A stretch of 64,000 nucleotides of DNA from Peribacillus simplex (GTDB lineage: Bacteria; Bacillota; Bacilli; Bacillales; DSM-1321). The notes under the pieces are model-generated. The model was not told the DNA's origin, did no database searches, and saw only the letters and a list, made by a program, of their open reading frames with translations. Shown here one piece after another: positions 8,561-55,810 of the stretch; position 1 is the stretch's first letter, and each line of letters opens with the position of its first letter. Location of the stretch: contig NZ_FTMX01000007.1 of the NCBI RefSeq assembly GCF_900156045.1, positions 1 through 64,000 of the forward strand, in the 5' to 3' direction. The position numbers and the translations under genes were made by a program.

Positions 8561-9238
8561 TTGATACATATATTAATTGCGGATGATGATCGGCATATTC
8601 GGGAGTTGCTTAAATTTCACTTGGAAAAGGAAGGGTACATGGTATCGGAAGCGAAGGACGGGAATGAGGCTTCCTTGATACTGGAGAAGGAACGGATCCA
8701 TCTGGCGGTTGTCGATATTATGATGCCGTTTAAAAACGGACTGGATCTTTGTAAGGAAATCCGGGATCAATATGATCTGCCGGTCATTTTATTGACAGCT
8801 AAAGATCAACTTATCGATAAGGAAAAGGGGTATTTTGCGGGTACGGATGATTACCTCGTGAAGCCATTTGAGCCACGGGAACTTCTATTCCGGATAAAAG
8901 CGCTATTGCGAAGGTACCGTATGGTGAATTCTGAATCCATCTCATTGAATCAAACGGTCATTGACCGTAAAAGTTATGAAGTTCGAATAATGGGGAATAC
9001 GCTGCTTCTGCCGCTTAAGGAATTCGAGCTGCTGGCTCAGCTGGGGAGCTTTCCTGATCAAGTCTTTACGCGTGAGCAGCTTATTGAATTGGTATGGGGT
9101 GCTGATTTTGAAGGGGATGATCGGACGGTTGATGTCCATATTAAACGGTTAAGGGAACGTTTTGCCGGGCGGACCGATGATTTTGTTATAACGACTGTCC
9201 GTGGCTTAGGTTATAAACTGGAGGTCAACAAGAAGTGA
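8561..9238 (+). CDS. hssR: Haem response regulator HssR
   Basis: This is an OmpR-type regulator. The receiver domain has DDD at 8-10, phospho-acceptor D52 (VVDIMMP) and K in LVKPFEP; a winged-helix domain follows with DDRTVDVHIKRLRERF and TTVRGLGYKLE. The sequence, including GTDDYLVKPFEPRELLFRIKALLRRY, tracks Staphylococcus HssR. TTG 8561 sits a good distance from GGAG (8546-8549); GTG 8552 is too close to it, so I prefer TTG. The stop overlaps the start of hssS. HssR activates haem-exporter genes when HssS senses excess haem. Confidence 0.88.
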   Translation: MIHILIADDDRHIRELLKFHLEKEGYMVSEAKDGNEASLILEKERIHLAVVDIMMPFKNGLDLCKEIRDQYDLPVILLTAKDQLIDKEKGYFAGTDDYLVKPFEPRELLFRIKALLRRYRMVNSESISLNQTVIDRKSYEVRIMGNTLLLPLKEFELLAQLGSFPDQVFTREQLIELVWGADFEGDDRTVDVHIKRLRERFAGRTDDFVITTVRGLGYKLEVNKK

Positions 9239-33548: not shown

Positions 33549-33815
33549 AATAAAAAACTCGCCCCTGAAAATCAGGGACGAGTTTGTGCTCGCGTTACCA
33601 CCCATATTCCGCGCTTCAAAGAAGCTGCGGCACTCAGTCAACGTACGTATTCATACGTGATCCATTGTAACGGCGGAAACCCGTCAAAGCCTACTGCATT
33701 TTCAGCTTTGCATCTCAGAGATGATTTTCGGATAGGCCTTGGACATCGACTTCCACCACATGTCGACTCTCTGTGGAACAGGGTTCTCATCTTACTCTTT
33801 CTCTTCATAGATTTT
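33549..33815 (-). ncRNA. T-box leader controlling brnQ, probably isoleucine-specific
   Basis: On the minus strand the leader has stem I (AGAGAGTCGAC...), stem III (CAAAGC...GCTTTG), the T-box sequence GGGTGGTAACGCGAG near 33588-33605 and a terminator (CTCGTCCCTG...CAGGGGCGAG plus T run, 33552-33585). In the stem I loop the sequence GAAAATCATCTCTGAG places AUC as the likely specifier codon, which fits isoleucine and brnQ. Uncharged tRNA would stabilise the antiterminator and switch the gene on. Confidence 0.88.
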
Positions 33816-34024
33816 ATAATATAAAGATAATTTAGCAAATTCAGATTATGAAGTCAACATAATTTATCATTAATCCTTTTAAAGGAGCAGGAAATTAGTC
33901 CCTCGTTGGCGAAACTTCCTATATCCAGAGGGTATTTTGAAAAATAATAGGATATTACTCCCTATTATCTTTCTAATCGCAACTATATTATAATAGAAGG
34001 CAGAACACTAAAGGAGACAACAGT

Positions 34025-37498: not shown

Positions 37499-37606
37499 TC
37501 TCTTATCAAGAGTGGCGGAGGGACTGGCCCTAAGATGCCCAGCAACCGTTCCATTAGGAATTGGTGCTAAATCCTGCAAAACAGAAATGTTTTGACAGAT
37601 AAGAGA
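37499..37606 (+). ncRNA. SAM-I riboswitch (S-box) aptamer
   Basis: P1 is formed by CTCTTATC (37500-37507) and GATAAGAG (37598-37605). Inside are the conserved S-box blocks AGAGTGGCGGAGGGACTGGC, GCCCAGCAACC and GGTGCTAAATCC. Bound S-adenosylmethionine stabilises P1, frees the terminator at 37634 and turns the downstream transporter off. Confidence 0.95.
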
Positions 37607-46142: not shown

Positions 46143-47543
46143 TTACTTAACACTAGCGTCTGTTTTCTCTATCGAACCAACCTCTTGTTTTAGTGCATTT
46201 TCAGCGATATTCAACTTTTTTCTCATCGGGAAATAATATAAAACAGCTGGGACAACTAACCCAATAATCCAAGCGATATCTGCCCCTTCAAAGGCCTTGG
46301 CTATCGGTCCTACATAGAATGATGTATTTATAAAAGGGATTTCCGCCAAGATTGATACAAGAAATGCCATACAGGTAATCCAATTTATTTTTCCATACTG
46401 ACCGTTCACATCGAAAATATCTTTAACATTGTAACGGCCATGTCGCAGCAAATAATAATCAACAAGATTAATGGATGTCCATGGAATTAAAAAATAACTA
46501 ATGAAAAAGATGAAATTCAGGAAAAAGGATAGAAAATTACTCTGACCCAGTAAGCACAATACGGTTCCTGCAACTGTTACACAGAATATCATTCCTATTC
46601 TAACTTTGGGAGTGACCTTTAATTTAATAAACGGTTCAATTGTCGTTATCGTTGCCATGAATGCCCCATATAGGTTAAAGACATTTATAGCAAGTTGTCC
46701 AAAGATGATTATAAAGAACATGATTAAAGCAAAATTTCCAAACAGGCTGGCCAAATTACCGCCAGAGTGATCAAGGAAGTTAGGAATCGCAATGGTTAAG
46801 GTTGCGCCTAATGTCATCATCCATATGGTACCGATGACAGTGCCAGCGTAACTATACCAAAATGTATGGGCAGTGGGTGTGGTTATCGGTAGATAGCGAG
46901 AATAGTCCGCAACGTAGGGGGCATAGGCCAGTTGCCATGTGGCAACCATACTGACGGCCAATAAAAACACTGGTATATCCAAATTCCCCATTGCCCAACT
47001 GCCTGCCGGGACTTGCAATTGGAAGACTATATATGTAGCTACAATATAAATGCAGAGAGACGCCCAGGACAATAATTTTTGCATTTTATGAATTAAGTTA
47101 TAGCCATAAATGGTGGCCACGAAACAAAGAACATTTAACAGTATTATGCTCCATGTTTGGTCGATCTTTGTTAAGCTGCTTAAGGTTTGCGCTGCAAGCA
47201 AACCGCTGCTGGCAAAGAAACCTAAATAGACAAACATAACGAGAAACAAGGGGAAAATGGCTCCGATTACACCAAATTGAGCCCGGCTTTGGATCATTTG
47301 CGGAATTCCGAGTTGAGGTCCTTGAGCTGAATGGGAGGCCATGAAAATGGCGCCTAATAAGGTACCGACAATTATTGCAGCCAGACTCCAAAATAAATTA
47401 AGTCCTAATGTAATTGGCAATGCCCCGGTCACAAGAGTGGTAATATGCATATTTGCCCCAAACCAAATTGGAAATAAATCACGGGCCTTGCCATGGCGTT
47501 CATTTGCCGGAATATATTCTATACTGCGAGTTTCAACTTTCAT
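46143..47543 (-). CDS. NCS1-family nucleobase/N-heterocycle permease (CodB-like)
   Basis: The 466-residue protein has twelve membrane helices. FPIWFGANMHITTLVTGALPITLGL, SHSAQGPQLGIPQMIQSRAQFGVIGA and YSRYLPITTPTAHTFWYSYAG are NCS1 landmarks; the family carries cytosine, uracil, allantoin, hydantoins, thiamine or pyridoxine. ATG 47543 has AGGGGG upstream; the longer frame to 47585 would run across an operator. It diverges from the GntR operon and shares its operator, so it probably imports the compound that operon degrades. Confidence 0.88.
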   Translation of the reverse strand: MKVETRSIEYIPANERHGKARDLFPIWFGANMHITTLVTGALPITLGLNLFWSLAAIIVGTLLGAIFMASHSAQGPQLGIPQMIQSRAQFGVIGAIFPLFLVMFVYLGFFASSGLLAAQTLSSLTKIDQTWSIILLNVLCFVATIYGYNLIHKMQKLLSWASLCIYIVATYIVFQLQVPAGSWAMGNLDIPVFLLAVSMVATWQLAYAPYVADYSRYLPITTPTAHTFWYSYAGTVIGTIWMMTLGATLTIAIPNFLDHSGGNLASLFGNFALIMFFIIIFGQLAINVFNLYGAFMATITTIEPFIKLKVTPKVRIGMIFCVTVAGTVLCLLGQSNFLSFFLNFIFFISYFLIPWTSINLVDYYLLRHGRYNVKDIFDVNGQYGKINWITCMAFLVSILAEIPFINTSFYVGPIAKAFEGADIAWIIGLVVPAVLYYFPMRKKLNIAENALKQEVGSIEKTDASVK

Positions 47544-47572
47544 CAATTTACCCCCTATCAAATTCGTTAAAC

Positions 47573-47592
47573 TACCATGTACCATGCAAGCT
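47573..47592 (-). promoter_or_regulatory. GntR-type operator upstream of NCS1 permease
   Basis: On the minus strand this reads AGCTTGCATGGTACATGGTA, identical over 20 bases to the sequence at 47848-47867 on the plus strand. Confidence 0.85.
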
Positions 47593-47805
47593 TATTTTAT
47601 AGAATCACTATAATTGTAAGCGTATACAGATGTCAATATTTTCAGAAAAAATAATTTTTAAGGAGATTTTCCTAAATGATCAGTGCATTCATCTATGAAT
47701 TTCAATAAATCAGATCAATTATTATATTGAAAATATGAAACCCCAGTTTGAAAATTATGGAACAGTGTGTCTTCGAATGAAAAATAAAATTTTATATTTT
47801 TTGAA

Positions 47806-47834
47806 TTGACAGTCTATTTATCATGACCTATAAT
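47806..47834 (+). promoter_or_regulatory. Consensus sigma-A promoter of the GntR operon
   Basis: TTGACA, a 17-base spacer and TATAAT make an exact consensus promoter. The operator begins 13 bases downstream, over the expected start point, so repression is the likely control. Confidence 0.9.
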
Positions 47835-47847
47835 TGCACTTATCAAG

Positions 47848-47867
47848 AGCTTGCATGGTACATGGTA
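47848..47867 (+). promoter_or_regulatory. GntR-type operator of the catabolic operon
   Basis: AGCTTGCATGGTACATGGTA repeats the element before the divergent permease. The inner GGTACATGGTAC-like part has the near-symmetry expected of FCD-type GntR sites. Confidence 0.85.
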
Positions 47868-47893
47868 CAAACTTTTAGAAGGAGGGGCTTTTC

Positions 47894-48568
47894 ATTACAG
47901 CTATCTTAACGTTGGGGATTACCGCTCAGGTTACGAATGCCATACGCGAATCAATAGTAACTGGAGAATATGAACCGGGACAAAAATTATCGGAAACAGT
48001 TTTATCTGAATATTACAAAGTTAGCAGAACCCCTATTAGGGAAGCATTTAAACAGCTAGAAAGAGAAGGGTTAGTCGAAATCATTCCAAGAGTTGGAACA
48101 TGTGTGACCAAACCAACTGAAAAGGAACTAAATGAGTTATTTACTTTAAAGGAAGTAATGGAAGGGCTTGCAGCGGGTTTGCTCGCAGAAAGCGGCAGTG
48201 CTGAAGACATTAATAAACTTAAGCAAGCGGTGTCCGACATGGAGATTGCTATACAAAATTCGGATAAAAAGCTATATGTCGAGGCTAATGATGTTTTTCA
48301 TTCAGTCATTCAAGAAGGAGCCAACAACTCTAAATTAAGTTACATGCTAAATTTGCTGCTCAATCAAATACCTTATAGACAGTATGTCTTTTTAACCATC
48401 GAAGATCCGGTTCGCCGTGAGAGATCACTAAAGGAACATCAGGCGGTCTTGATAGCCATAGAAAAAGGCAATCGGGAGGAAGCGGAGAAGGCAATGCGGG
48501 AGCATGTAAAAGCAAGCGGAATGCAGCTTAAGATGGACATAGCAAAAAAACTTGGTCAAAAAAAGTGA
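47894..48568 (+). CDS. GntR-family regulator with FCD domain
   Basis: The protein has a GntR winged helix (VTNAIRESIVTGEYEPGQKLSETVLSEYYKVSRTPIREAFKQLE) and a helical FCD ligand domain (about 85-210) with metal-binding His/Asp positions (NDVFHSVI). The start is unusual: AAGGAGGGG is ideally placed for an ATT codon at 47894, while the first conventional start is TTG 47912, 24 bases from it. ATT gives TAILTLGITAQ, similar in length to relatives. It is probably the repressor of this operon and of the divergent permease. Confidence 0.85.
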   Translation: MTAILTLGITAQVTNAIRESIVTGEYEPGQKLSETVLSEYYKVSRTPIREAFKQLEREGLVEIIPRVGTCVTKPTEKELNELFTLKEVMEGLAAGLLAESGSAEDINKLKQAVSDMEIAIQNSDKKLYVEANDVFHSVIQEGANNSKLSYMLNLLLNQIPYRQYVFLTIEDPVRRERSLKEHQAVLIAIEKGNREEAEKAMREHVKASGMQLKMDIAKKLGQKK

Positions 48569-48588
48569 TATGAGGGGGAATGAGTTTT

Positions 48589-49734
48589 ATGAAATTCGGA
48601 ATCTTTGCAAATCTTGCAGGACAGGGAAGACATGATGAGTATTATAAAGTGTTGGATGAAGCCCGTGAGCAAGCCATTTACTGTGATGAAAATGGTTATG
48701 ATTCGATTTGGTATACCGAACACCACTTCGGTCATGAAGGAAACGAACTGATTTCTAACCCGATCTTAATGGGTGCCGATATTGCTGCACGTACAAAGAA
48801 CATTCGAATTGGCCAAGCTGCCAATGTCGCCACTTTCTGGCACCCACTGCGTTTGGCGGAAGACATAGCAATGCTTGATCAGTTAAGCAAAGGTCGTGTG
48901 GAAGTTGGCCTGGCTCGTGGATTATACGGAAGGGAAGCGGCTAATCTAAACACTTTGGCAGATCCAGCAAATCAAGAACAAAACCGGGCACTGTTTGAAG
49001 AAACATTGGAAATTTTAAAAAAGGCATGGTCAAACCGTTTCTTTTCTCATCAAGGTGACATCTATCAATTTCCTCCTAAAGGTTTAAAGTGGAGTCACCC
49101 TATGAGTCCATCAACTTCGGAATTCATGGATATGGAAAAAGGCGAAATTGATAAAATTTCCCTTATGCCTAGACCTTACCAGCAATCACTTCCACTGTGG
49201 CAAGTAATTGATTCACCGCGATCCATTGAATTGGCTGCGGAGAACAATATACAAGGAATGTTTTGGATGCCTACCGTAAAAGAACTAAAAGGCCGTTTTG
49301 AACTGTATCGTGAAAGGGCTTCCAAATCCAGAGGCTATGAAGTACCACTTGGTCAGGGTATTGCTTTAGTACGTGATGTATATGTAGCGGAAACCATGGA
49401 ACAGGCTCGTCAAGATGCGGCAGAAGCAGTATTGAACAATTATCGCTGGATTTGTCACTGGAGGGGGCTAAGCAACCTTATGGATCCGGGCGAAACAGTA
49501 AAGGAAGGACAGGAATTGAACTACGAATTCCTACATCCAAGAAATTTATTGTTTGGTACACCTGAATATGTAGCTGAGAAAATTCAAGAATTGAAGGAAG
49601 AGCTGAATTTAGAAACATTACTGCTTTGGGTGAACCATAATGGTTTGCCACATGAAAAAATGATGAAAAGTTTAAAATTGTTCACGGAAGAAGTTATGCC
49701 AAAATTCACAGAAACTAAAATGGGGGTAATGTAA
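48589..49734 (+). CDS. LLM-class flavin-dependent monooxygenase
   Basis: The 381-residue protein has the luciferase-like TIM barrel: MKFGIFANLAGQG, YDSIWYTEHHFGHEG near residue 45, IRIGQAANVATFWHPLRLAEDIAMLDQLSKGRVEVGLARG around 80-115. These enzymes use reduced flavin from a partner reductase; an FMN reductase is four genes downstream. ATG 48589 is ten bases from GGGGGA, better than ATG 48580. It is the likely first oxidative step of the pathway. Confidence 0.88.
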   Translation: MKFGIFANLAGQGRHDEYYKVLDEAREQAIYCDENGYDSIWYTEHHFGHEGNELISNPILMGADIAARTKNIRIGQAANVATFWHPLRLAEDIAMLDQLSKGRVEVGLARGLYGREAANLNTLADPANQEQNRALFEETLEILKKAWSNRFFSHQGDIYQFPPKGLKWSHPMSPSTSEFMDMEKGEIDKISLMPRPYQQSLPLWQVIDSPRSIELAAENNIQGMFWMPTVKELKGRFELYRERASKSRGYEVPLGQGIALVRDVYVAETMEQARQDAAEAVLNNYRWICHWRGLSNLMDPGETVKEGQELNYEFLHPRNLLFGTPEYVAEKIQELKEELNLETLLLWVNHNGLPHEKMMKSLKLFTEEVMPKFTETKMGVM

Positions 49735-50313
49735 ATGTTAGATATTCGTAAAGTGTATACAGCTATTGAAGAAACACGTATTGAGGGCGGTAAAAAAGTA
49801 GAGAATCCCATCAAGATGATAATAACTATGGCTGTTATCAAAAACCCATGGGCTGGTAGAGGGTATGTTGATAATTTAAAACCGGAAATTGACGAATATG
49901 CACCGCAAATTGGCGAACTATTAGTTGCTGAACTATTTAAGCACATTGGTTCGGCTGATGATGTCGAAGCATTCGGCAAGGCAGCTGTCGTGGGAGTGGA
50001 TGGGGAAGTTGAACATGCATCAGCTTTTATCCATACCTTGAAATTCGGTAACAAATTCCGGGACGCCGTGAAAGGAACGAGTATCTTAAGCTTTACTAAT
50101 AAGCGTGGTGGCGCTGGAACTGCGGTGCTCATACCGATGGTACATAAGACAGATGACTCTGAACGTTCTCATTTCATTACATTTGAAGCTTCTATACCTG
50201 ATGCACCGAGGGCCGATGAGATCGTTGTTGCTATTGGGGTTTCTACAGGAGGACGTCCTCATCCGAGAACAGGAAACAGGCATCAAGATATGGTTGAAAT
50301 GGGGCTGGTTTAA
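49735..50313 (+). CDS. DUF1185/'amino acid synthesis' family protein
   Basis: The 192-residue protein begins directly at the stop of the monooxygenase. Blocks such as ENPIKMIITMAVIKNPWAGRGY, FGKAAVVGVDGEVEHASAFIHTLKFGNKFRDA and GVSTGGRPHPRTG match PF06684 (DUF1185), named 'amino acid synthesis' without a proven reaction. Tight coupling with an LLM monooxygenase and hydrolase points to a catabolic step instead, for example on an opened ring. Function unknown. Confidence 0.75.
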   Translation: MLDIRKVYTAIEETRIEGGKKVENPIKMIITMAVIKNPWAGRGYVDNLKPEIDEYAPQIGELLVAELFKHIGSADDVEAFGKAAVVGVDGEVEHASAFIHTLKFGNKFRDAVKGTSILSFTNKRGGAGTAVLIPMVHKTDDSERSHFITFEASIPDAPRADEIVVAIGVSTGGRPHPRTGNRHQDMVEMGLV

Positions 50314-51107
50314 TGCCAACTACATTGCATGGAAAAGATTCGCTTCATTATGAAGAGAAAGGGATTGGTCAATCGCTTATCTTTATTCATGGTGTTGGTC
50401 TTGATCTTACGATGTGGGAAGAACAAGTTGAAGATTTGTCGAAACATTTCCGTGTTATCACATATGACATGGTTGGGCACGGAGGATCCGAGCATCCTCC
50501 GGGTCCTTATTCCCTTTCACAGTTTGTTGAGCAGTTAGCAGAACTAATGAATCACCTACGAATTGAGAGAAGTCATATTATTGGTTTCTCCATGGGGGGG
50601 ATGGTCGCTCAGGCATTTGCATTAAAATATCCGGATAAAGTGAAAACGCTAACAATCATGAACGCAGTGGCCAATCGGACGGAGGAACAGAGGAAAGCCG
50701 TTTTAAAAAGAGTGGAAGAAGTGAAAATAACGGGACCTTTGGCAACAATTGAACCAGCCATTAAACGCTGGTTTAATCCAGAATTCTTAAACTTTCAAGA
50801 AGAAACAGTCAGTAAGATTCGGAAAAGACTTCAGACAAACGACGCTGCTTCATATTTAGCTGCCTATACACTTTTTGCAACAGCAGATGAAGATTTGTGG
50901 CCGCAGATTCACCAGATCAATATACCGACCCAAATTATAACAGGGGAGCATGATATAGGTTCAAATCCTGAAATGGCGAGACAAATGCATGAAAAGATTG
51001 TGCATTCAGAACTAATGATAGTACCTAATATGAGGCATATGCTACCGATGGAAGGATCCAAAATAGTGAACGAAGCTATTAGGTCGTTTATTGAAAGGCA
51101 AAAGTAA
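50313..51107 (+). CDS. Alpha/beta-fold hydrolase
   Basis: The 264-residue hydrolase has the oxyanion motif IFIHGVGLDLTMW, nucleophile elbow GFSMGGMVAQAF, an acid in ITGEHDIGSNPEM and His in PNMRHMLPMEG. Its ATG overlaps the previous stop by one base (TAATG). It looks like RutD/3-oxoadipate-enol-lactonase-type hydrolases that open or deacylate small intermediates. The substrate cannot be read. Confidence 0.85.
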   Translation: MPTTLHGKDSLHYEEKGIGQSLIFIHGVGLDLTMWEEQVEDLSKHFRVITYDMVGHGGSEHPPGPYSLSQFVEQLAELMNHLRIERSHIIGFSMGGMVAQAFALKYPDKVKTLTIMNAVANRTEEQRKAVLKRVEEVKITGPLATIEPAIKRWFNPEFLNFQEETVSKIRKRLQTNDAASYLAAYTLFATADEDLWPQIHQINIPTQIITGEHDIGSNPEMARQMHEKIVHSELMIVPNMRHMLPMEGSKIVNEAIRSFIERQK

Positions 51108-51121
51108 AGGGGTGACTCGAT

Positions 51122-52606
51122 GTGAAAGAGCTGAAGAAATATCAGATGTATATAAACGGAGAATGGGTAGAATCATCAAGTGGTGAATATTTCGATAGTT
51201 ATAACCCTGCAACTGAAGAAGCTTGGTGTCAAGTCGCAAAAGGGAATGTTGAAGATGTAAATCATGCGGTTCAATCTGCGCATAATGCATTCTTGCATTC
51301 AGGGTGGACTGATATGACATTCACAGAGCGGGGGCGCCTGGTTAGAAAGCTTGGAGAGCTGATTGCTATTCACTCTGAAGAGCTTGCGAAAGTCGAATCA
51401 CTGGATAATGGGAAATTAATACGTGAAATGCGTGGTCAGGTAAAATATTTACCTGAATTTTTCTATTACTATGCAGGGCTAGCAGATAAAATCCATGGTC
51501 AAACCTTACCAATTGATAAAAAAGATATGTTCGCTTTTACATCCAAAGAGCCGCTGGGGGTAGTAGCCGCCATTACTCCTTGGAATTCCCCTCTTTATTT
51601 AACAACCTTGAAGCTTGCACCTGCACTTATAGCAGGAAATACTATAGTCATTAAACCTTCAGAAATGACTTCGGCATCTCTATTGGAGCTGGTGAAACTG
51701 GTTGAAGAAGCTGGTTTTCCACCTGGTGTAGTCAATGTCGTTACCGGCTTTGGAATGCCTGTAGGCGATACACTCACCTCCCATCCCCTTGTAAGGCGTG
51801 TGGCCTTTACGGGAGGTTCGGAATCAGCACGGCACATTGTTCGTAATTCGGCTCAAAATTTTGCTCAGGTATCACTTGAACTTGGAGGGAAATCACCGAA
51901 TATCGTGTTTGAGGATGCTAATACGGATAATGCCGCGATGGGAATCATAGCTGGTATATTTGGTGCTTCGGGGCAAAGTTGTGTGGCTGGTTCACGTGCA
52001 TTTTTACATGTCGACATTTACGATGAAGTGATGCAAAAACTCGTAGATCGTGTATCGAAAATTAAGATTGGTGATCCTTTTCAAGATGATACAGAAATGG
52101 GACCGCTGGCAACGCAAGCCCAATTGGAGCGTGTCCAAAAATACGTAGCTATCGGGTTAGATGAAGGTGGAAAACTTGTTTGCGGAGGTAAAAAGCCTGA
52201 ATATTTAGATAAAGGATGGTATTATGAGCCCACAATCTTCGAACATCGCGATAACGATTCCCGTATTACTAAAGAAGAAATATTTGGTCCTGTGTTAAGT
52301 GTTATCCCTTTTAAAGATGAAAAAGAGGTTATTCAATTAGCAAACAGTACTGATTACGGATTAGCGGCAGGAATTTGGGTGAGTGATATTGCAAAAGCCC
52401 ATCGAGTCGCGAAAGCTATACGTGCTGGAATCGTATGGGTGAATACCTATCGAAGTATATCACCAATTGCTGCAATCGGCGGCTCTGGCCTAAGTGGTTA
52501 TGGAAGAGAAGGCGGTTATGAAGCGATTCATGAATATATGCAAGATAAAGTGGTTTGGATCAATACATCATCTGAACCGATTCCTGACCCGTTCATAATG
52601 AGGTAG
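51122..52606 (+). CDS. NAD(P)-dependent aldehyde dehydrogenase 1
   Basis: The 494-residue enzyme has ITPWNSPLY near 151, base E253 (LELGGKSPN), nucleophile C287 (GASGQSCVAGSR) and EEIFGPVLSV. It starts at GTG, eight bases from AAAGGGGTGA and 14 bases after the hydrolase gene. It should oxidise an aldehyde formed after ring opening. It resembles the broad betaine/semialdehyde group; a precise substrate is not visible. Confidence 0.9.
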   Translation: MKELKKYQMYINGEWVESSSGEYFDSYNPATEEAWCQVAKGNVEDVNHAVQSAHNAFLHSGWTDMTFTERGRLVRKLGELIAIHSEELAKVESLDNGKLIREMRGQVKYLPEFFYYYAGLADKIHGQTLPIDKKDMFAFTSKEPLGVVAAITPWNSPLYLTTLKLAPALIAGNTIVIKPSEMTSASLLELVKLVEEAGFPPGVVNVVTGFGMPVGDTLTSHPLVRRVAFTGGSESARHIVRNSAQNFAQVSLELGGKSPNIVFEDANTDNAAMGIIAGIFGASGQSCVAGSRAFLHVDIYDEVMQKLVDRVSKIKIGDPFQDDTEMGPLATQAQLERVQKYVAIGLDEGGKLVCGGKKPEYLDKGWYYEPTIFEHRDNDSRITKEEIFGPVLSVIPFKDEKEVIQLANSTDYGLAAGIWVSDIAKAHRVAKAIRAGIVWVNTYRSISPIAAIGGSGLSGYGREGGYEAIHEYMQDKVVWINTSSEPIPDPFIMR

Positions 52607-52664
52607 TGAAATTTGAAGGGTAGACGCCTGGTATCAAATTGTATTAATAAGGAGGAAAAGTGAA

Positions 52665-53225
52665 ATGAAGTTACTGGGAATTTCAGGGACGATAATAGGA
52701 ACAAAGACGAAAGTTGTTATTGAAAAGGTTTTAGAGGAAGTTAGGAACAACCATCCTGATATCGAGGTCGAACTGCTTGATTTGAAAAAGTATGATGTTC
52801 AATTTTGTGATGGCCGTAATCCGTCAACATACACTGGAGATACGAAAAAAGTAATTGATATCGTTACCTCAGCAGACTTTTACATTATAGGAACACCAAT
52901 ATTCCAAGGGTCGATTACGGGTGCTCTTAAAAACTTATTTGATTTAATACCCCCGAAGGATTTCCGTAATAAAGTAATGGGACTTGTGGCTACTGGTGGA
53001 ACCTACCAGCATTATTTAGTGATTGAAAATCAGTTGAAACCGATAGCCAGTTATTTCCGGGCATTTGTTGCACCTGGCTCTGTTTATGCTCATAACGACC
53101 ATTTCAATCAACAAAACGAACTGGTTGATGAGGAAGTTTTAGAACGTATTTCAATGCTGGGTGAAGAAGTCGTTTTTATGCAAAAAGCATTGAAAAGTAC
53201 TAAACCAGAGCATCAATTAAGCTAA
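52665..53225 (+). CDS. NAD(P)H-dependent FMN reductase
   Basis: The 186-residue flavodoxin-like protein has LGISGTIIGTKTK, YIIGTPIFQGSITGALKNLFDLI and GLVATGGTYQHYLVIENQLKP, as in SsuE/MsuE-type reductases. AAGGAGG precedes the ATG. Its natural role here is to supply reduced flavin to the LLM monooxygenase encoded upstream. Confidence 0.88.
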   Translation: MKLLGISGTIIGTKTKVVIEKVLEEVRNNHPDIEVELLDLKKYDVQFCDGRNPSTYTGDTKKVIDIVTSADFYIIGTPIFQGSITGALKNLFDLIPPKDFRNKVMGLVATGGTYQHYLVIENQLKPIASYFRAFVAPGSVYAHNDHFNQQNELVDEEVLERISMLGEEVVFMQKALKSTKPEHQLS

Positions 53226-53326
53226 AAGATAGTAGATTTATAAAATGAAAAAAACTCCAGCTGATAAATCGTTTTGGAATTGAGTACATTTCAATTAACA
53301 GAGCTAAGTAGCAAGGAGGGGACAAA

Positions 53327-53632
53327 TTGCTATTAGATGTAGAAGAGATAATAAACTTAACTGATTTATCCTTCATTAAAGTCTGTAATGAACAGTATGG
53401 GATCAATAGAGGGGTTTATAATACCATTGATGCTTGGTTTTATAAACAAGGAATTAGTAACATTCTAGAAAGACGAAATAGCATATTATATTTTCTTGAA
53501 TTTATTAAGCGAAACTCCGGGAATGAAAATAACCACTGTAAATTTGGTCACGGTGGATTAACGACAAAATTAGAAGAATATTATTTTCCAAGAATGGAAT
53601 CGACCGTTTCAAAAATTGCCTCTAATCTTTAA
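53327..53632 (+). CDS. Uncharacterised 101-residue protein in catabolic operon
   Basis: The frame starts at TTG with AAGGAGGGG well placed. The product is helical and polar (LTDLSFIKVCNEQYGINRG, NERRNSILYFLEF-like stretch) with one Cys near residue 20 and another at HCKFGHGG. No family is recognised and no membrane segment is seen. It is on the same strand between the reductase and second dehydrogenase genes. Confidence 0.6.
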   Translation: MLLDVEEIINLTDLSFIKVCNEQYGINRGVYNTIDAWFYKQGISNILERRNSILYFLEFIKRNSGNENNHCKFGHGGLTTKLEEYYFPRMESTVSKIASNL

Positions 53633-53669
53633 AAGAATTACATACAAAGAGTGAAGGGTGGCTGGGAAC

Positions 53670-55112
53670 ATGACAATCATAGATAAAGTAGAAAAAAAGC
53701 ATTTACTAATTAAAGGGGAATGGGTGGAGGCCAAGGAGTATAGTCAACTACGATCTCCTTTTTCAGGAGAAGTCATAGCTGAAATCCCCCTGGCTACAGA
53801 CGAAGAGACTGACCAGGCTATCGAAGCGGCGCAAAAAGCTACAAAGGTGATGGCAAAAATGCCGGCCCATCAACGTGCGAAAATCCTTGAAACATTGGCC
53901 CATCTTCTTGAGGAGCGTGCAGATGAAGCCGCTCAAATCATATCTATTGAGTCAGCGAAGCCGGTTACAACCGCGAAGGGCGAGGTGGCGCGAACCATTG
54001 AGACGTACAAGTTTGCCGCTGAAGAAGCGAAAAGAATTCATGGAGAAACGCTTACACTGGATGCCGCCCAAGGTGGCGAAAATCGACTTGGTTACACTGT
54101 ACGTGAACCGATTGGAGTGATTGGGGCCATAACACCTTTCAATTTCCCCATGAATCTAGTCGCTCATAAAGTAGGTCCTGCCATCGCCGCAGGAAATACA
54201 ATTGTATTAAAGCCAGCAAGCCAAACGCCTCTATCCTCTTTGTTCCTCGGAGAACTATTAAAAGAAGCAGGATTGCCTGCAGGAGCATTAAATGTGGTCA
54301 CGGGTGGAGGAAGAGTGGTTGGAGACAAATTGGTCACTGATTCAAGAGTAAGTATGATTACTTTTACCGGTAGCCCAGGAGTTGGGATTGGCATTCGCAA
54401 CAAAGCTGGATTGAAACGAGTGACGCTGGAACTGGGATCCAATGCAGCAGTCATCATTGACAGTGGTGTGGATATCGATAAGATTATTTCTCGTTGTGTG
54501 ACTGGAGCATTTTCAAACCAGGGACAAGTATGCATTTCTTTGCAAAGGGTTTATGCTCATGAAGAAGTCTATGATCGTTTTGTTGAAAAGTTCTTAGAAG
54601 CAACGAAACTATTAAAATTAGGTGATCCGCTTGATCCGGAAACGGATGTTTCCGCATTGATCTCCCCAAATGATGTTGAAAGAACCCTCAATTGGATTGA
54701 GGAGGCGAAACAAGATGGAGCCAAGATTGCAACAGGTGGAATAGCGGAAGGCAATATCCTTCATCCGACCGTCATATTGGATGCCGATGCTTGCTCAAAG
54801 GTATCTTGTCATGAAGTGTTCGCCCCTATCGTTTTGATTAACAAGGTTCAATCAGTAGAACAAGCAATTGATTTAGTGAATGATTCGAATTACGGCCTGC
54901 AAGCAGGGATTTATACGAACGATGTACGTACAGCACTGGATGCGGCAGAAAATTTACAAGTTGGTGGAGTCATGATCAACGACATTCCGACATTCCGTGT
55001 GGATAATATGCCGTACGGTGGAGTGAAGGAAAGTGGAACTGGCCGTGAAGGATTAAAATATGCAGTGGAAGAAATGACAGAAATGAAGCTGGTTGTCTGG
55101 AACCGAAATTAG
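53670..55112 (+). CDS. NAD(P)-dependent aldehyde dehydrogenase 2
   Basis: The 480-residue enzyme has ITPFNFPMNLVAHK near 154, E254 (LELGSNAAVI), C288 (NQGQVCISLQR) and the C-terminal MPYGGVKESGTGREG. It is clearly different from the first dehydrogenase and closer to lactaldehyde/succinate-semialdehyde/phosphonoacetaldehyde-type enzymes. ATG 53670 is eight bases from AAGGGTGG; GTG 53658 overlaps that site. Two dehydrogenases suggest two aldehydes, or one dialdehyde, in the pathway. Confidence 0.9.
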   Translation: MTIIDKVEKKHLLIKGEWVEAKEYSQLRSPFSGEVIAEIPLATDEETDQAIEAAQKATKVMAKMPAHQRAKILETLAHLLEERADEAAQIISIESAKPVTTAKGEVARTIETYKFAAEEAKRIHGETLTLDAAQGGENRLGYTVREPIGVIGAITPFNFPMNLVAHKVGPAIAAGNTIVLKPASQTPLSSLFLGELLKEAGLPAGALNVVTGGGRVVGDKLVTDSRVSMITFTGSPGVGIGIRNKAGLKRVTLELGSNAAVIIDSGVDIDKIISRCVTGAFSNQGQVCISLQRVYAHEEVYDRFVEKFLEATKLLKLGDPLDPETDVSALISPNDVERTLNWIEEAKQDGAKIATGGIAEGNILHPTVILDADACSKVSCHEVFAPIVLINKVQSVEQAIDLVNDSNYGLQAGIYTNDVRTALDAAENLQVGGVMINDIPTFRVDNMPYGGVKESGTGREGLKYAVEEMTEMKLVVWNRN

Positions 55113-55125
55113 GGAGTGGAAAATC

Positions 55126-55380
55126 ATGGCTTATTATGCAGCAATTTTACATATGATTGATGCTGAAAAAAATATAGAAGTGCGCCCACAGCATATTGAG
55201 TATTTAAACGAACTTGATCGTAAAGGGAAGATTTTTGCAAGAGGGCCTTTTGCAGATGGCTCAGGCGGCTTGGTTGTCTATATTGCAGACACATTTGAAG
55301 AAGCACTTTCATTAGCGGAAAATGATCCCCACGTTGTACATAAGGTACGTAGACTGGAATTAAAAGAGTGGATCATTTAA
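55126..55380 (+). CDS. YciI-like protein
   Basis: The 84-residue protein has the YciI/ferredoxin-like fold pattern: YYAAILHMIDAEKN, RPQHIEYLNELDRKGKIFARGPFADGSGGLVVY and SLAENDPHVVHKV. The His and Asp of the family (H in RPQH, D in FADG) are present. It follows the dehydrogenase by 13 bases and ends the operon. Members act as small lactone or chloromuconolactone-type enzymes in some pathways; here the reaction is unknown. Confidence 0.8.
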   Translation: MAYYAAILHMIDAEKNIEVRPQHIEYLNELDRKGKIFARGPFADGSGGLVVYIADTFEEALSLAENDPHVVHKVRRLELKEWII

Positions 55381-55475: not shown

Positions 55476-55810
55476 GCATGTGCAGGTCAACTCCATAATG
55501 AAAAGATAAAGTTCTACCAAAAGGGTGTAACCATATTAATCAGACCTTACTATCCTTTGATAACTGCCAGTTGTTAAACGTGAAAGTATTGAGTGCAAAA
55601 AGGTTCAAAGAGCGAAATTTAAAAAAATGCTTCGTGAAATAAACAAGCGGGATTACACCGGTTTTATAAAAAATAGGTTTAAAAGTCTTGTCTATACAAG
55701 GCTTTTTTTGAATTATGGTCAATGGGTTAATTCTTGATATATGTATTAGTAAGATGGCTTATTGGATTGAATAATTATATGATGGAGTAGCTGCTTACAA
55801 TAACTACTCT
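55476..55810. other. Gene-poor stretch before MITE copy 2
   Basis: I see no supported gene. A terminator-like hairpin (AGTCTTGT/ACAAGGCT plus T run) lies at about 55682-55712, which suggests that a lost gene once ended here. Confidence 0.4.

Follow-up and report, generated by a model that had tools for sequence, protein, structure and literature searches.

Gene content of the locus

The window, which is the whole 64-kb stretch of Peribacillus simplex DNA analysed here (contig NZ_FTMX01000007.1, positions 1 to 64,000), carries at positions 46143-55380 a gene cluster built around a luciferase-like monooxygenase (LLM) and a DUF1185 protein. According to open reading frame (ORF) calls and Pfam matches, a divergent NCS1 permease gene is followed by genes for a GntR regulator, the LLM, the DUF1185 protein, an alpha/beta hydrolase, a first aldehyde dehydrogenase (ALDH1), a flavin mononucleotide (FMN) reductase, the small protein orf101, a second aldehyde dehydrogenase (ALDH2) and a YciI-like protein. 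An earlier reading of the letters alone (the sequence-only reading) had overlooked orf101 (53327-53632); the genes that it named were all confirmed at their place by Pfam matches over the cut-off. Scores in addition to those listed below are 168.4 bits for Bac_luciferase, 114.3 for Abhydrolase_1, 581.5 and 544.7 for Aldedh, and 105.5 for FMN_red; the GntR and FCD domains of the regulator were also matched. The genes from GntR through ALDH1 are tightly packed, with spacings from a 1-base overlap up to a 14-base gap. The features are as follows; names in Tgn refer to proteins of the trigonelline pathway.

46143..47543, minus strand: NCS1 permease (PF02133, 308.6 bits), proposed to take up a betaine; alternative start at 47585
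47573..47589, minus strand: operator copy at the NCS1 promoter, TTGCATGGTACATGGTA, exact match
47636-47607, minus strand: promoter-like site on the NCS1 side, 11 of 12 consensus letters
47806..47834, plus strand: sigma-A-like promoter of the main operon, TTGACA-17-TATAAT, 12 of 12 consensus letters
47851..47867, plus strand: operator copy at the promoter of the main operon, TTGCATGGTACATGGTA, exact match
47912..48568, plus strand: GntR/FCD regulator, proposed repressor (PF00392, PF07729)
48580..49734, plus strand: LLM flavin-dependent monooxygenase, proposed ring-cleaving oxygenase with a TgnB-like role, in a clade of its own (PF00296; tree)
49735..50313, plus strand: DUF1185/AA_synth protein, relative of TgnF (PF06684, 228.9 bits)
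50313..51107, plus strand: alpha/beta hydrolase, TgnD-like (top host match to the hydrolase of the Acinetobacter cluster)
51122..52606, plus strand: ALDH1, TgnC-like (reciprocal best match; clade support 100/100)
52665..53225, plus strand: FMN reductase, proposed source of reduced FMN (PF03358 family)
53327..53632, plus strand: orf101, small conserved protein, proposed flavin-supply regulator resembling the C-terminal part of RibR (conservation; riboflavin kinase fusions; predicted model)
53658..55112, plus strand: ALDH2, proposed second aldehyde oxidation, substrate unsure (PF00171)
55126..55380, plus strand: YciI-like protein (PF03795, 43.4 bits); longer ORF from 55093
55681..55706, plus strand: terminator-like hairpin 3' of YciI, an 11-pair stem followed by a T run; consensus match only

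The permease gene probably starts at 47543, a start that is preferred because the longer ORF begins within the operator. The start of YciI is probably 55126. The start of the GntR gene is ambiguous: it could be the TTG codon at 47912 or, further upstream, a non-standard one.

Conservation and gene neighbourhood

Relatives of the locus were sampled as the best 80 of 324 confirmed LLM relatives, a set weighted towards close relatives. The 80 retrieved loci comprise 31 from Bacilli, 27 from Actinomycetota and 22 from SAR11; a gene is called nearby when it lies within the retrieved locus, up to 10 kb on either side, and the ORF calls of high-GC loci are rough. Single loci are cited by L numbers. 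A survey of the gene set had been set beforehand as a test able to refute the sequence-only reading, and it came out in favour of that reading, with LLM and DUF1185 together in 80/80 loci, across three phyla. The hydrolase is present in 75/80 and ALDH1 in 73/80; the 7 loci without one or both stop there at a contig edge. The GntR gene occurs in 28/31 Bacilli and 25/27 Actinomycetota loci. Two copies of DUF1185 are found in 26 of the 27 Actinomycetota loci, the remaining one (L057) being cut off. Reductases of the PF03358 type are present in 22/31 Bacilli loci. Judged by similarity, a PF01613-type reductase is present in all 27 Actinomycetota loci and in 11 of the 31 Bacilli loci. ALDH2 (22/31) and YciI (25/31) are confined to the Bacilli loci, with 0/27 in Actinomycetota and 0/22 in SAR11, and are therefore not core members.

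The nearest retrieved loci by LLM, among the best 80 of 324, are those of Bacillus sp. ISL-34 (99%) and P. frigoritolerans (97%). The distribution is patchy: the LLM was found at E ≤ 1e-120 in 8 of 398 genomes of the class Bacilli, the host counted in, and at E ≤ 1e-90 in 6 of 289 genomes of the class of one SAR11 genome, that genome counted in.

Transporter genes of the betaine/carnitine/choline family (BCCT) are found in 19/31 Bacilli loci and NCS1 genes in 17/31; at least one of the two is present in 30/31, with neither in L038. In Actinomycetota the counts are 9/27 for BCCT and 18/27 for NCS1, with no overlap, so that 57/58 Gram-positive loci carry BCCT or NCS1, and 28/58 carry BCCT. The BCCT assignment was checked by Pfam for three genes. 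An ATP-binding cassette (ABC) transporter with a solute-binding protein (PF13416) is present in 15/22 SAR11 loci. Of all indications that the substrate may be a betaine, the interchange of BCCT and NCS1 is the strongest.

A gene resembling succinic semialdehyde dehydrogenase (SSADH) lies nearby in L028, L031 and L055; in L028 it takes the place of ALDH2. A gene for 3,4-dihydroxy-2-butanone 4-phosphate (DHBP) synthase is nearby in 6/31 Bacilli loci and riboflavin kinase genes are found near some loci, which fits an FMN-hungry oxygenase. Divergently oriented next to the SAR11 clusters are genes of the arylmalonate decarboxylase family (in 19/22 loci) and of the M24 creatinase type (in 17/22), for example at L082:9117-9860 and L082:7944-9113.

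Operator sites and shared regulation

Two exact copies of the 17-mer TTGCATGGTACATGGTA are present in the 64-kb window, on opposite strands, one at the NCS1 promoter and the other at the GntR-LLM promoter, in agreement with the single shared regulator that the sequence-only reading had assumed. There is no third match in the window at up to 3 mismatches (0.09 expected). Its 13-bp core has one further site in the window, with 1 mismatch, at 8632. A palindrome scan upstream of the GntR gene gave nothing convincing; the operator was spotted by eye in the scan output and then tested. The two promoter-like sites that rank best in the region are each followed, 16-17 bases 3', by the start of one copy; the promoter scan is overall without excess (24 sites against 28.7 expected). 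Placement directly 3' of promoter-like sites suits a repressor, and GntR is proposed as the putative repressor of both promoters.

The 13-bp core (at most 1 mismatch) lies within about 1.1 kb ahead of the cluster in 27/28 GntR-bearing Bacilli loci, with L015 as the exception, and in 0/3 Bacilli loci without GntR; of the latter, L035 has two 1-mismatch sites elsewhere. The core also precedes a downstream pair of isochorismatase-family and NCS1-type genes in 9/10 loci that have the pair (exception L013), and these genes therefore seem to be part of the same GntR regulon; the isochorismatase-family assignment was checked by Pfam in one locus.

The host genome measures 6.08 Mb in 31 contigs. It contains three exact sites of the full operator pattern, two of them at this locus, and two sites with one mismatch. 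The third exact copy is at 89441-89457 of host contig C8, about 1 kb ahead of a gene for a MatC-type dicarboxylate carrier. An inverted pair of operators with one mismatch each is located at 133956-133999 of the same contig (133956/133983), near BMC-domain microcompartment genes.

Relationship to the trigonelline pathway

The ring of trigonelline is opened by TgnA/TgnB, as stated in a passage of PMC8269262, and a passage of PMC11354265 places TgnB, the flavin-dependent trigonelline monooxygenase, in a set of luciferase-like proteins. TgnF of Acinetobacter baylyi ADP1 is described, in a passage of a further source, as a DUF1185 homologue that stimulates the TgnE-dependent oxidation of succinic semialdehyde; according to the same passage, such a stimulation could not be shown for that source's own protein. 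The sequence-only reading could name no single known pathway with the present gene set. That view did not hold up: the Tgn set, with its TgnA/TgnB oxygenase system, TgnE and the DUF1185-family TgnF, resembles the operon.

Four Tgn-type clusters, labelled as such by gene content, served as references: an A. baumannii record, K. aerogenes, S. meliloti pSymA and R. phaseoli. The clusters of Acinetobacter, Klebsiella, Sinorhizobium and Rhizobium contain genes for GntR, DUF1185, hydrolase, a PF01613 flavin reductase, LLM and aldehyde dehydrogenase; the transporter is NCS1 in Acinetobacter and Klebsiella, and the rhizobial clusters have one of the ABC type. The window operon thus has in common with the Tgn system of the A. 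baylyi ADP1 type an LLM oxygenase with a separate flavin reductase, an aldehyde dehydrogenase, an alpha/beta hydrolase, DUF1185 (TgnF) and GntR, and with the Acinetobacter and Klebsiella records also the NCS1 permease. It differs by the addition of ALDH2, YciI and orf101, and a search covering the operon found no SSADH-family enzyme within it.

The likeness is closest in the downstream enzymes. ALDH1 and the aldehyde dehydrogenase of the Acinetobacter cluster are reciprocal best matches at 549 bits, with runners-up at 412 (host genome) and 404 (Acinetobacter record), a margin of more than 130 bits. In a tree of 24 hand-picked sequences, all 19 cluster aldehyde dehydrogenases form one clade (100/100, midpoint root). 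Both results place ALDH1 with the TgnC type. The cluster enzymes linked to TgnB are nested among proteobacterial enzymes linked to LLMs of the window type, and those of Agrobacterium and R. etli group with Actinomycetota. The DUF1185 tree (25 sequences, also hand-picked) agrees for the TgnB-linked rows, with some forks open. The window hydrolase is TgnD-like, being the best of the 13 host matches to the Acinetobacter cluster enzyme, at 158 bits against 68 for the next (one search direction). The DUF1185 protein belongs to PF06684, is present in a single copy in the host genome and is 54% identical to the Acinetobacter cluster protein. Membership in the TgnF family makes it a likely pathway member, and the earlier view that it stands in for a missing Rut gene, including the variant of a mere RutC replacement, was dropped. 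The window NCS1 (PF02133) is the sole host match at E ≤ 0.001 to the NCS1 (PF02133) of the Acinetobacter Tgn-type cluster (37%).

Oxygenase and flavin reductase

The window LLM is only 27% (local) or 33% (global) identical to the Acinetobacter Tgn-type LLM, compared with 57% to a SAR11 LLM and 61-65% to Actinomycetota LLMs. In a tree of 45 hand-picked rows it groups with the SAR11 and Actinomycetota LLMs, and the four TgnB-like rows lie elsewhere; weak support at several deep forks and the meeting of long branches leave the exact distance between the two LLM groups unsure. The DUF1185-LLM clusters of Agrobacterium and R. etli (L206, L207) share the set of aldehyde dehydrogenase, hydrolase, DUF1185 and flavin reductase, and their LLM is a third oxygenase variant, 40-41% identical to the Acinetobacter Tgn-type LLM. 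An SSADH is annotated in the R. etli cluster, and the Agrobacterium set is adjoined by betaine transporter genes annotated as ProX/ProW/ProV. Plasmid LLM relatives (32-36%) were treated as other LLMs; the stretches around them are without an annotated DUF1185 gene.

The simplest reading of these comparisons is a conserved downstream module with an exchangeable oxygenase and reductase. Conservation of the module behind an exchanged front end makes an identical or closely similar substrate more likely and is no proof of it. The operon is best classed as resembling Tgn in its mode of action, with downstream enzymes in common, and is no strict member of the Tgn type, because the LLM belongs to another clade than TgnB and the reductase to another family. 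Rather tentatively, the window LLM may represent a second, unnamed lineage of pyridinium-betaine ring-opening oxygenases over Bacilli, Actinomycetota and SAR11, joined to a TgnC/D/F module in which oxygenase and reductase were repeatedly swapped, acting on a betaine other than trigonelline in at least some hosts, and accompanied in Bacilli by a stand-alone protein of the RibR C-terminal type that frees FMN riboswitches while the pathway, with its high demand for flavin, is active. In an alphaproteobacterial locus (L106:12774-13979), the LLM-DUF1185-hydrolase-aldehyde dehydrogenase genes are preceded by genes for a Rieske-type ring-hydroxylating oxygenase and for a flavin reductase of family PF01613.

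Proposed pathway and substrate

In this soil bacterium, the gene set very probably opens and degrades an N-methylated pyridine compound, for example trigonelline, which is a metabolite of plants. A pathway of the Tgn type is assumed with good confidence, and trigonelline itself has somewhat better than an even chance of being the substrate. The locus as a whole is considered, with reasonable probability, to be a GntR-controlled operon for the Tgn-type catabolism of an N-methylpyridinium carboxylate, with trigonelline (N-methylnicotinate) as the leading substrate. From the observed gene content, the kinship of ALDH1, hydrolase, DUF1185 and NCS1 to the Tgn-type cluster, the co-conservation and the shared operator, we infer the substrate, each reaction and the repression as follows.

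The NCS1 permease would import the pyridinium betaine, and the FMN reductase would supply FMNH2 to the LLM oxygenase, which would cleave the ring beside the nitrogen to give an N-formyl enamine bearing an aldehyde. This aldehyde would be oxidised by ALDH1 in the role of TgnC. The alpha/beta hydrolase, in the role of TgnD, would then take off formate to yield methylamine, CO2 and succinic semialdehyde, probably assisted by DUF1185 in the role of TgnF, and succinate would be formed by ALDH2 or another dehydrogenase. orf101 probably increases the flavin supply. GntR, bound at the operators immediately 3' of each -10 box, would keep both promoters repressed until it binds an inducer. Gene content supports the main elements of the sequence-only reading, namely uptake, opening of an N-heterocycle by LLM and reductase, hydrolysis and aldehyde oxidation. 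That reading had placed hydrolysis before aldehyde oxidation. The Tgn reactions run from ring opening through aldehyde oxidation to deformylation, and by analogy the order is probably the other way round, with ALDH1 acting before the hydrolase. The ProX/ProW/ProV genes of Agrobacterium and the BCCT and NCS1 transporters are signs of a betaine that suit this assignment.

A number of observations weigh against trigonelline catabolism of the Tgn type. The oxygenase, which decides the substrate, falls in a clade separate from TgnB, and the reductase is of family PF03358, with PF01613 in all four references, none of which is A. baylyi ADP1. ALDH2 is not SSADH-like: it scores 375.5 against a cut-off of 646.35 with the SSADH model, is 33% identical to the Acinetobacter SSADH, has as its best NCBIfam match a lactaldehyde dehydrogenase model, below the cut-off, and has a 91.5% identical copy in the host genome that adjoins a different LLM. 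SSADH-like genes were tallied in merely 2/31 Bacilli and 2/27 Actinomycetota loci, and the one of L065 (31%) is probably a general aldehyde dehydrogenase. Nearby genes of the SAR11 loci include an SSADH-like gene in 0/22, a GntR gene in 0/22 and a flavin reductase gene in 0/22. Genes resembling those of methylamine assimilation are found near just 3/27 Actinomycetota loci. Their families were tested in L040 only, where a type III glutamine synthetase (561.1 bits, cut-off 469.6) and Glu_synthase were found, GXGXG remained below the cut-off, and the oxidase is nearest to N-methyltryptophan oxidase, also below the cut-off.

An operon of the same type for homarine (N-methylpicolinate) is an unlikely alternative. 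Homarine catabolism possibly applies the same logic to the isomer, in that ring cleavage, aldehyde oxidation and deformylation would lead to N-methylglutamate or 2-oxoglutarate and not to succinic semialdehyde; Mgd is N-methylglutamate dehydrogenase. The other isomer might require an oxygenase unlike TgnB, as is found here, and the absence of SSADH-like genes near the SAR11 loci is in line with such a product. Clusters of the window type are common in SAR11 (22 of the best 80 loci), and homarine is a recognised marine metabolite. Passages of one marine survey give far lower values for trigonelline, although the homarine values of that survey were later corrected, and judge TgnA/TgnB unlikely to act on homarine. 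Trigonelline is favoured over homarine by the SSADH-like genes beside some window-type clusters (L028, L031, L055), and by the type III glutamine synthetase and Glu_synthase-like genes near the 3/27 Actinomycetota loci, which suggest free methylamine and not N-methylglutamate. The downstream enzymes of both LLM types are also intermixed in the trees, which favours one product.

It is improbable that a non-methylated pyridine (pyridine, nicotinate or similar) is degraded by the same logic. The pyridine pathway of Arthrobacter, with a two-component flavin monooxygenase, an aldehyde dehydrogenase, an amidohydrolase and SSADH, uses similar enzyme types, and divergent DUF1185 genes occur in a cluster annotated with 6-hydroxynicotinate reductase. 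The BCCT genes in 28/58 Gram-positive loci and the methylamine-type genes of Actinomycetota point instead to an N-methyl betaine. In the cluster just mentioned (L209:4065-7573), two divergent DUF1185 genes accompany annotated genes for 6-hydroxynicotinate reductase and a molybdopterin-dependent oxidoreductase, which suggests that DUF1185 plays a broader part in the breakdown of N-heterocycles.

An unrelated oxidation by the LLM, such as alkanesulfonate use, or a Rut-type uracil pathway is highly improbable and was dropped, since the best NCBIfam match of the FMN reductase, MsuE (115.7, cut-off 212.5), and the weak match of the hydrolase to RutD (89.5, cut-off 238.5) both remain below the cut-off, the 22 NCBIfam matches of the LLM include no alkanesulfonate or Rut oxygenase model (presumably, the library contains one for RutA), and the set resembling TgnC/D/F accounts for the remaining genes. 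Of the Rut-like logic seen in the sequence-only reading, the combination of LLM, reductase and hydrolase stands; the RutD and Rut oxygenase assignments do not, and the other genes differ.

orf101 and its possible role in flavin supply

A tblastn search detected orf101 in 30/31 Bacilli loci, and ORF calling recovered it in 29/31; it has no Pfam or NCBIfam match. In L014 (14866-15603) and L038 (18769-19458) it forms one protein with a riboflavin kinase domain (PF01687). The host genome has three further copies, two of them near PF00296 LLM and PF01613 reductase genes and the third alone. In one region of host contig C8 (L133:6800-10778), an orf101 copy (77%) and the ALDH2 copy (91.5%) stand beside a larger, different PF00296 LLM and a PF01613 flavin reductase. 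The family is represented in L133, L134, L136 and L137.

The protein is present in 32 of 398 genomes of the class Bacilli, the host counted in. The 32 regions around the matches contain an LLM (20), an FMN_red-type reductase (13), a PF01613-type reductase (8) or a riboflavin kinase-like domain (9), in overlapping counts without a background rate; the denominator includes 7 regions in which our own ORF picking did not re-find orf101. It was re-found in 25/32 regions, of which 22/25 have at least one such flavin gene, or 17/20 once regions with DUF1185 are excluded, again without a background rate.

RibR of B. subtilis is described, in passages of reviews, as a flavokinase and RNA-binding protein that is encoded in a sulfur operon and seems to interfere with FMN riboswitches. 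An alignment of orf101 with a provisional RibR sequence, which matches no record exactly, gave 43% identity over 94 columns. In several loci orf101 comes after a riboflavin kinase domain or is joined to one, as in RibR, and it adjoins LLM or flavin reductase genes; unlike RibR, the window orf101 is itself without a kinase domain, having no Pfam match. The predicted model is all-helical (mean predicted local distance difference test score, pLDDT, 84.4), and a Foldseek search of the model against solved structures gave no match at E ≤ 0.001. No FMN riboswitch was found in the window by Rfam. We propose that orf101 is possibly a relative of the C-terminal part of RibR and a regulator of flavin supply.

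Significance and further observations

The Tgn pathway type is known from other bacteria; what is different here is the putative ring-opening enzyme, which is also found in Streptomyces and in the oceanic SAR11 group. With this assignment, a set of LLM, DUF1185, hydrolase and aldehyde dehydrogenase genes that is widely conserved but poorly annotated in Streptomyces, SAR11 and soil Bacilli acquires a function open to testing. The assignment also suggests that a module for betaine catabolism could retain its downstream enzymes while the oxygenase is replaced. The data further point to orf101 as a partner of LLM operons in the supply of flavin, and the control of flavin by riboswitches in Bacilli would thereby become testable in more settings. 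Should published work on homarine already include the SAR11 clusters, what is new would come down to the operator, orf101 and perhaps the Gram-positive branch. Elsewhere in the window, Rfam matches indicate a T-box leader at 33571-33817 (minus strand) and an S-adenosylmethionine (SAM) riboswitch at 37500-37605 (plus strand).

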